NCBI GenBank assembly: GCA_902779645.1
Contig: CACZCH010000004.1
Location: forward strand, 62,001-126,000
Source: an uncultured bacterium
GTDB lineage: Bacteria > Cyanobacteriota > Vampirovibrionia > Gastranaerophilales > Gastranaerophilaceae
Direction of reading: 5' to 3'
DNA: 64,000 bases
Shown: positions 61,989-63,666 of the stretch, in pieces
How positions within the stretch are numbered: position 1 is the stretch's first letter
Layout of the letters: the number at the start of each line of letters is the position of its first letter
Made by a program: the position numbers and the translations under genes
The notes under the pieces: model-generated
The model's database searches: none
The model's input: the letters and a program-made list of their open reading frames with translations, nothing else
What the model was told of the DNA's origin: nothing

Positions 61989-62026
61989 AAAAAAAACAGA
62001 CGAACAGTAATTCGTCTGTTTTTTTA
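61989..62026 (+). terminator. Rho-independent terminator of malQ
   Basis: ACAGACGAA pairs with TTCGTCTGT within a longer A/T-flanked stem (61989-62004 with 62011-62025), ending in a T-run. Confidence 0.85.
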
Positions 62027-62248: not shown

Positions 62249-62569
62249 ATGGCAACAGATTCAAAAAGACAAAGAATTAGAGTTTGTTTAAGATCTTACG
62301 AACACAAATTAGTTGATGTATCAGCTGAAAAAATCGTAGAAACTGCAAAAAGAACAGACGCTAAAGTTGCCGGTCCTATTCCTTTACCAACAAAAAGACG
62401 TATCTATTGTGTATTACGTTCACCACACGTTGATAAGAAATCACGTGAACACTTTGAGATTAGAACTCATAAACGTATTATCGATATTTACGAACCTACT
62501 CAACAAACAACTGAAGAATTGAGTAGATTGGACTTACCTGCTGGTGTAGATATTGAAGTTAAATTATAG
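62249..62569 (+). CDS. rpsJ: 30S ribosomal protein S10
   Basis: 106 residues from ATG 62249 with AAAGGA upstream; the frame is open 24 codons earlier but the family starts here. [57 protein letters not shown] and the [11 protein letters not shown]-terminal region are standard S10. Also acts as NusE in transcription antitermination. First gene of the S10 operon. Confidence 0.97.
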
Positions 62570-62902
62570 GCGTTAGCCGGTGCGAGTCCGGTGTTGCGTT
62601 TGCAAAGGCAAATGCAAGCAGGGACGAAGCACTACGAAGCCGCCGTTGTGACGAAGCGTAAGCGAAGGAACGAAGCAATCTGTGATTGCACAGGCGGAAA
62701 ACAACAATAACACACTAGTTCCGAATTTGAAAATTTCATAATAGCATTATGCATATAATGTGAACTACGGCACCCGAAGCGGTGTATGGTAAAGTCCCTA
62801 AGGGATGGTAAAGAGACTAGAACGGTAGCGCTCGCAAGATGAAAGGCATAATTGTACGACGGAATATTTTCTGTGCGTATTTATGTCGGAAAGGAAAAAC
62901 AC
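62570..62902 (+). ncRNA. Highly structured spacer between rpsJ and rplC, group II intron domain I-like (tentative)
   Basis: 333 bases, GC-richer than its surroundings, without a plausible gene. Hairpins include CCGGTGCGAGTCCGG (62578-62592), TTGCGTTTGC/GCAAATGCAA (~62594-62617), GCAATCTGTGATTGC, CATTATGCATATAATG, CACCCGAAGCGGTG and TCCCTAAGGGA; ACGAAGC occurs four times (62624, 62634, 62651, 62670). The style (GGTGCGAGTCC, repeated GACGAAGC, AGAACGGTAG) recalls domain I of bacterial group II introns, but no domain V is recognised. Alternatively an L3/L4 regulatory leader. Confidence 0.35.
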
Positions 62903-63538
62903 ATGACATTAGGTGTAATAGGTAAAAAAGTTGGAATGACTCAAATCTTTGATTCAGAAGGTTTGGCAGTTCCTGTTACAGTTATCCAAGTTGGTAAAAC
63001 TGTTGTAACTCAAGTAAAAACAGTTGAAACTGACGGATACAATGCAATCCAAGTTGGTACAATTGAAGCTAAAGAAAAACACTTAACAAAAGCAGAATTA
63101 GGCCACTTCAAGAAAAACGGTTTGGATAACTTCAGACATCTTCAAGAATTCAGAGTAGAAAATCCTGCTGACTACAAAGTTGGTCAAGAAATTGATTTAT
63201 CTGTATTAAATGATGTTCAAAAAGTTGATGTAACAGGTATTTCTATTGGTAAAGGTTTCCAAGGTACAGTAAAAAGATGGAACTTTGGAAGAGGGCCAAT
63301 GGCACACGGTTCTAAGAACCACAGAGAACCGGGTTCAATCGGTGCAGGTACAACTCCATCACGTGTTATCAAGGGCAAAAGAATGGCTGGTAACATGGGT
63401 AATGAAAGAGTTACAATAACAAAACTTAAACTTGTTAAAGTCGATTCAGAAAATGGTTTAGTTTTGATTAAGGGTTCAGTGCCCGGTTGCGAAGGCAGAT
63501 TGGTAACAATCGTTCCTACAAGAACTAAGTGGAATTAA
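62903..63538 (+). CDS. rplC: 50S ribosomal protein L3
   Basis: 211 residues from ATG 62903 with AAAGGA upstream; an open frame begins 17 codons earlier but lies in the structured spacer. N-terminal LGVIGKKVGMTQIF and the central loop GFQGTVKRWNFGRGPMAHGSKNHREPGSIG, which reaches the peptidyl transferase centre, are diagnostic. Confidence 0.97.
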   Translation: MTLGVIGKKVGMTQIFDSEGLAVPVTVIQVGKTVVTQVKTVETDGYNAIQVGTIEAKEKHLTKAELGHFKKNGLDNFRHLQEFRVENPADYKVGQEIDLSVLNDVQKVDVTGISIGKGFQGTVKRWNFGRGPMAHGSKNHREPGSIGAGTTPSRVIKGKRMAGNMGNERVTITKLKLVKVDSENGLVLIKGSVPGCEGRLVTIVPTRTKWN

Positions 63539-63666
63539 CAAAAAGGCATCAAGGCATTAGGACATTAAGGTACTAAGAATTGATGCACATTGAAAAGATA
63601 ACCCGCTTCTGCCATATAAAACTCAAAAAGAGTAAGGGGTAGACGGAAAGCAAAAGGAAAAAGAAA

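Follow-up and report, generated by a model that had tools for sequence, protein, structure and literature searches.

The long spacer between rpsJ and rplC in the 64,000-nt stretch of DNA that we analyzed (hereafter the window) consists of two unrelated structured modules joined together, which we named LEFT and RIGHT. RIGHT likely represents a new ribosomal-protein leader of Gastranaerophilales and LEFT a new dispersed structured repeat found at stop codons. The genes and modules are arranged as follows:

62249 to 62569, + strand: rpsJ (S10), the upstream gene, from its open reading frame and translation.
62570 to 62703, + strand: LEFT, a dispersed two-domain structured repeat whose first base directly follows the stop codon of rpsJ, delimited by covariance model R1 and by the BLAST split.
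62727 to 62902, + strand: RIGHT, the conserved rplC leader RNA in its genus form, from alignment A2 (37 sequences) and its position before rplC.
62903 to 63538, + strand: rplC (L3), the downstream gene.

The stop codon of rpsJ at 62569 and the ATG of rplC at 62903 leave a gap of 333 nt (62570-62902), in agreement with the initial annotation of this region. The four ACGAAGC words reported there are present at 62624, 62634, 62651 and 62670, out of six on the + strand of the whole window. The gap had also been described as GC-richer, which is true overall (0.46, relative to 0.34 for the window), although only its first half is GC-rich (0.55; second half, 0.40). Its richness in hairpins exceeds chance when the whole gap is folded as RNA (z = -3.52; 0 of 100 shuffles as stable). 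Folded by itself, the second half stands out only weakly (z = -1.75), its stability being matched by 10 of 200 shuffles. A spacing of tens of bases, assumed to be normal for these two genes, was indeed observed at most loci outside the order but not in the window's genus, where the gap is always long and distinct spacers mostly measure 183-336 nt. A BLAST search of the gap against 57 whole genomes (own genome included) split it into two modules: query positions 1-142 gave many scattered matches across these genomes and query positions 150-351 gave mostly one match per genome, located before rplC where this was checked. The suggestion that the gap might be a novel ribosomal-protein leader fits its second half well, as this half is structured and found across the order, always before rplC; the first half is instead a dispersed repeat.

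We compared the rpsJ-rplC spacer among relatives, as had been proposed, and found the second half conserved before rplC across the order. Within the genus, 18 spacers share a conserved stretch that runs from TTGAAAA up to the start of rplC, and all the sequence before it differs. Alignment A2 comprises 37 of the 40 distinct leaders, three of them (L033, L062 and L092) being left out for their very long inserts. The parts of RIGHT in the window are:

62745 to 62760, + strand: a near-invariant palindromic hairpin of the genus form, CATTAT-GCAT-ATAATG.
62760 to 62768, + strand: the 5' strand of the core helix, GTGA-A-CTAC, found ahead of rplC in every family of the order that could be read.
62825 to 62835, + strand: the 3' strand of the core helix, GTAG-CGC-TCGC.
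62845 to 62887, + strand: a genus-type hairpin, GGCATA..TATGTC, between the core and the Shine-Dalgarno sequence, from alignment A5 and pair counts.
62890 to 62894, + strand: AAAGG, a Shine-Dalgarno-like sequence 8 nt before the rplC ATG, conserved in A2.

The order's other families have a leader reduced to GTGA-W-CTRC, a loop and GYAG-CGC-TCRC, followed by the Shine-Dalgarno sequence and the ATG. The core consensus is a GUGA-W-CURC / GYAG-CGC-UCRC helix, which in the minimal forms mostly ends 15-20 nt upstream of the ATG. RIGHT matched no Rfam family at gathering score and so belongs to none of the ribosomal-protein leader families known to Rfam.

The distribution of this core is tightly linked to rplC. 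In the GTDB contig collection, all 43 matches to the genus word GTAGCGCTCGCAAGANGNAAGGCATA are followed by rplC in the same orientation, which starts 48-62 nt after the end of the match; many of these records are named Candidatus Gastranaerophilales (Melainabacteria), and others uncultured bacterium, cyanobacterium or, apparently by error, Acinetobacter or Brachyspira. We also fetched 21 loci by their RplC protein rather than by the motif: the core was present in 20 of them, namely 17 of the 18 from other families of the order and, within the same family, all three that represent other genera. The single exception is a contig that has rplC from its very first base. RplC itself was not found in four of the 22 genomes of other families, including both genomes of family f2 and the only one of family f5, so that these two families lie outside the survey; the core precedes rplC in all five Gastranaerophilales families that could be read there. 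Altogether, the core sits just upstream of rplC in 73 of 74 loci of the order, 53 of which were chosen by the pattern or by the places of the pattern, and neither of its halves was found within 400 nt at 27 loci outside the order. The strict core pattern followed by a Shine-Dalgarno sequence occurs once each in 93 of 286 genomes of the order (reversed control: 0 of the 286), a lower bound because this pattern misses genera with an extra hairpin before the Shine-Dalgarno sequence, such as those of loci L105-L107. Across a sample of the phylum, it was detected in 28 of 291 genomes, all 28 inside the order.

We observed conserved secondary structure with covariation in RIGHT, although its extent is modest overall. 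The core pairs were evaluated on the short-loop forms (loops of up to 20 nt), which represent 23 of the 59 distinct cores, and all 206 cells scored for the nine proposed pairs are paired. One A-U pair is replaced by G-C in four of these minimal forms from three families (L039, L051, L211 and L212) and in one longer form (L044); in the outer helix, U-G takes the place of the U-A pair twice. Since compensatory change is confined to one pair, the covariation support for the core is real but modest, and the count of covarying pairs is not above the shuffled control (reached by 268 of 500 shuffles). The core helix is invariant within the window's genus and hence uninformative on pairing there. The genus-type 3' hairpin presents 39 doubly changed cells relative to 19.4 ± 3.6 after shuffling, with slid versions of the hairpin reaching up to 25 and a basal helix that hardly varies. 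The minimum-energy fold of the window's leader lacks the core helix; the centroid fold of a relative (L080) contains it. Across families, the bulged W of the core is mostly U with UCAC and mostly A with UCGC (exceptions: L208 and L051), a correlation that may reflect a tertiary contact.

The position of RIGHT, its conservation and its closeness to the start codon point to a control of rplC translation. Judging from the sequence, RIGHT is probably an autogenous translational repressor site, and we consider it a candidate site for L3 or L4. Under the proposed mechanism, a ribosomal protein of the operon made in excess over rRNA, with L3 and L4 as the likeliest candidates, would attach to the core helix and hide the downstream Shine-Dalgarno sequence, which would lower the translation of rplC and its coupled genes. 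In the window's genus, a second hairpin is placed between the core and the Shine-Dalgarno sequence. In eight of the 21 RplC-fetched loci, no rpsJ was found upstream and the core still precedes rplC; this makes S10 an unlikely ligand, and the gene for the ligand is probably rplC itself or one downstream of it. L3 is the product of the gene closest to RIGHT, and L4 regulates the S10 operon of E. coli, as stated in the part of PMC10931766 that concerns this operon.

A second motif bears on the choice between these two proteins:

63602 to 63646, + strand: a second leader-like structured motif before rplD (L4), CCGCTTCTGCCATATAAA..AAGGGGTAGACGG, based on 38 distinct copies and on covariation.

These 38 distinct copies precede rplD in the genus and in near genera, and the motif was not found before rplD in other families. 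An alignment of 32 of the 38 distinct rplD leaders presents 61 doubly changed cells relative to 21.7 ± 4.3 after shuffling. The motif has no Rfam match and its words are absent from the one 23S gene searched. Because rplD has its own covarying motif in the genus, we infer that L3 is somewhat more likely to be the ligand of the rplC leader. No counterpart of the rplC core was found by sequence in the LSU genes of three genomes, relatives being used for this comparison because the own genome gave no 23S match at the cut-off. A scan of one 23S for a helix with a CGC loop returned two matches, neither convincing; one of them joins parts that presumably pair elsewhere in the E. coli structure.

Two other explanations of RIGHT deserve consideration. 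It could be a riboswitch or the site of another trans-acting factor rather than of a ribosomal protein, given that the multi-arm variable region and the near-invariant palindromic hairpin of the genus form exceed the needs of a minimal protein site. However, RIGHT always precedes one ribosomal-protein gene, and the short hairpins that make up 23 of the 59 distinct forms are small for a typical aptamer, which leaves this explanation quite improbable. RIGHT might otherwise be a mere translation-start context (a standby site or an enhancer) or an RNase processing site, devoid of feedback: it is operon-internal and close to the Shine-Dalgarno sequence, and clade-specific conserved pieces are also present in other spacers of the operon. 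We regard this as unlikely, since generic starts need no sequence-specific core and this one, including its unpaired CGC, is kept in five families.

As a candidate repressor site, RIGHT resembles the leader of the E. coli S10 operon, which contains the uL4 site, and the L4 leader candidate of Archaeoglobi, the latter compared by description only: all are structured RNAs preceding an operon with rplC and rplD, and the feedback by a protein of the operon that we predict for RIGHT operates in E. coli. In contrast to the E. coli leader, RIGHT directly precedes rplC, with or without rpsJ on its other side, and belongs to another phylum; the text of PMC10931766 on the uL4 site places it in the 5' UTR that serves the S10 operon as a whole. 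The evidence for RIGHT is of the same kind as that for the leaders of Eckert and Weinberg 2020 (PMC7247131), as far as that article's account of them goes: conserved structure before ribosomal-protein genes. Among the 20 leaders in Table 1 of that article, which includes the Archaeoglobi L4 leader motif, none is from Cyanobacteria/Melainabacteria and rplC is listed first for the Archaeoglobi candidate only. In the literature searched (subscription papers and supplements lay outside it), we found neither a description of a Melainabacteria leader for rplC nor a bacterial ribosomal-protein leader with L3 as ligand. RIGHT would thus add a ribosomal-protein leader for a mostly uncultured gut lineage in which this search found none, and its minimal core is short enough for an easy ligand test with L3, L4 or another protein of the operon.

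The first half of the gap presents a different picture. LEFT is a unit of about 135 nt, described by a covariance model of 137 positions, with two domains in the window:

62580 to 62632, + strand: domain 1, with a GTGC/GCAC stem, a purine internal loop, a GTCC/GGAC stem and an apical hairpin at 62596-62617, from the fold, the alignment and pair counts.
62640 to 62697, + strand: domain 2, with a CCGCC/GGCGG closing stem, a three-way junction and a near-invariant GCAATC..GATTGC hairpin at 62675-62689, from the same evidence.

An alignment of 25 copies supports these two RNA domains, and 11 of their 27 pairs show double changes. The model built from them (R1) yielded 127 matches in 32 of 54 genomes, with one to 20 copies each, and scored the window copy, itself in the training set, at 129.5 bits. 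Three copies are present in the own genome: the gap copy, one at C7:175306-175437 and, in the rpsH-rplF spacer, one that is truncated. We then considered 92 copies from 79 sources, which are not independent since they were picked as the top matches of the 127 plus BLAST matches and include tandem copies and close relatives. In their alignment (A3), pairing is kept in 95.5% of cells, and doubly changed cells number 293 relative to 71.6 ± 8.0 after shuffling; these counts lean toward the structure because A3 was fitted to the model and 25 of the copies trained it.

The initial annotation had seen in the gap a likeness to domain I of a group II intron and had suggested a degraded ribozyme inside an essential operon. 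The first half contains a phrase, GGTGCGAGTCC..GACGAAGC, that we take to resemble bacterial group II domain I, and the domain I-IV model group-II-D1D4-4 (RF02003) does align with this half. This match, the only resemblance to a group II intron model, scores 14.1 bits (E = 0.58), far below the cut-off of 49; no Rfam family reaches its cut-off within the gap and none was found for LEFT. At six other loci with LEFT copies, no group II match was detected up to E = 2. The annotation had itself reported that no domain V was recognizable and that no maturase was present; we found no match to a domain V family in the gap and no RVT_1 match in the own genome, which is 99.94% complete. In addition, LEFT is a repeated unit with its own covarying three-way junction, reverse transcriptases are not associated with it across 54 genomes, and the second half of the gap is a conserved leader. 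That the gap is the remnant of a group II intron is thus extremely unlikely. We rejected this candidate on the absence of domain V, of a gathering-level Rfam match and of a reverse transcriptase, which corrects a plausible reading of the gap.

What distinguishes LEFT is its position relative to genes. Half of the copies (46/92) begin between -12 and +30 nt from the stop of a sense open reading frame of at least 70 aa, and 45 of these 46 fall within -8 to +5; at mirror positions on the other strand, the corresponding numbers are five of 92 and one. The upstream gene encodes a ribosomal protein for 33 of the 46 stop-adjacent copies: L6 (10), S8 (7), L3 (5), L23, S10 and L11 (2 each), and L14, L20, S9, S11 and S13 (1 each). 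The other 13 upstream genes include groES, groEL, ATP synthase gamma, biotin carrier, yidD and PC4 (twice), as well as two without a Pfam match. Where LEFT starts at offset -6, as it does after L11 and PC4 for instance, the gene ends on a stop codon that belongs to the element (GCG-TAA/TAG); at loci L148 and L156, LEFT adds a few residues to the product of rplK (L11) and supplies the stop codon of this gene. The remaining 46 copies lack such a sense stop; some are tandem second units or parts of larger repeats and some, examined by eye, lie behind genes of fewer than 70 aa, among them the L33-like genes in L154 and L164.

LEFT was found between rpsJ and rplC in just four of 18 spacers of the genus, several of the others holding other repeats. 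The window copy has its closest relative (91%) in the L3-L4 spacer of another species (G016), whose rpsJ-rplC spacer lacks LEFT, and the L3-L4 spacer of the window lacks LEFT as well. LEFT therefore moves or is copied between spacers and is probably mobile. The nearest neighbor of a copy was in the same genome in 33 cases (inflated by tandem copies), at the same site of another genome in eight and at neither in 51, with sites labeled by hand for part of the 92 copies. No clear target-site duplication was seen by eye for the window copy. Y1_Tnp is encoded in 16 of 32 genomes with LEFT and eight of 22 without (P = 0.41), and four times in the own genome; the presence of reverse transcriptase genes is likewise not associated with LEFT over the 54 genomes (P = 0.79; Fisher test). 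As candidate mobilizers of LEFT, RAYT and reverse transcriptase thus showed no association with it over these genomes.

A REP is a short single palindrome of about 20-40 nt. Like the REPs of E. coli, LEFT is made of dispersed palindromic units in intergenic DNA, some of them within 15 nt of stop codons. A subset of E. coli REPs lies at this distance from stops and is reported to stall ribosomes, as PMC12306157 puts it in citing Liang 2015. Unlike REPs, LEFT has two domains over about 135 nt and few copies, is found at stops in sense orientation only, prefers ribosomal-protein genes and may even carry the stop codon of the gene it follows. LEFT is thus a new family of REP-like post-stop repeats with an unusual site preference, for which no paper was found in the literature searched (again outside subscription papers and supplements).

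Any effect of LEFT on the message upstream of it would at most be a tuning of its termination, stability or translation, as E. coli REPs close to stop codons are reported to do. The strong covariation of LEFT and the 33 of 46 stop-adjacent copies that follow ribosomal-protein genes in sense orientation might suggest that it co-regulates ribosomal-protein operons as a common element through a shared factor. This seems doubtful, however, because LEFT is patchy among close relatives (four of 18 spacers), its site differs between species, it also follows groEL, groES, ATP synthase gamma, PC4 and unrelated genes, and half of its copies (46/92) are not beside a sense stop. An extended scenario, drawn from sequence data, would make LEFT a mobile RNA inserted specifically, and in sense only, at the stops of ribosomal-protein and other highly expressed genes, where it would serve across the order as a common post-termination device of ribosome-synthesis operons (ribosome release, reinitiation or message stability), beside a separate autogenous leader with L3 as ligand; we give this scenario little credence. 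As a dispersed repeat at stop codons, LEFT raises a testable question: how do repeats find, or survive at, the stops of ribosomal-protein genes, and does the expression of essential operons change?

Other elements were noticed in the same operons. In the rpsJ-rplC spacers of L012, L014, L015 and L026, other repeat-like sequences (of the CCCTCGCCCC..GGGTGAGGGG type, among others) occupy the same post-stop position, as do further repeat-like sequences in several rplC-rplD spacers of relatives, so that spacers behind ribosomal-protein genes seem to be repeat hot spots. Upstream of rpsJ, a strong terminator-like hairpin is located at 61990-62025, to which sRNA models match below cut-off; the gene that precedes it is presumably 4-alpha-glucanotransferase-like. 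Finally, the rpsH-rplF spacers of L028, L136 and L137 contain conserved words (of type TCGGTTCAATTGACAGAAAAGCCGA) before rplF, and others are found before rplR, which suggests that these operons contain more intercistronic RNA elements.
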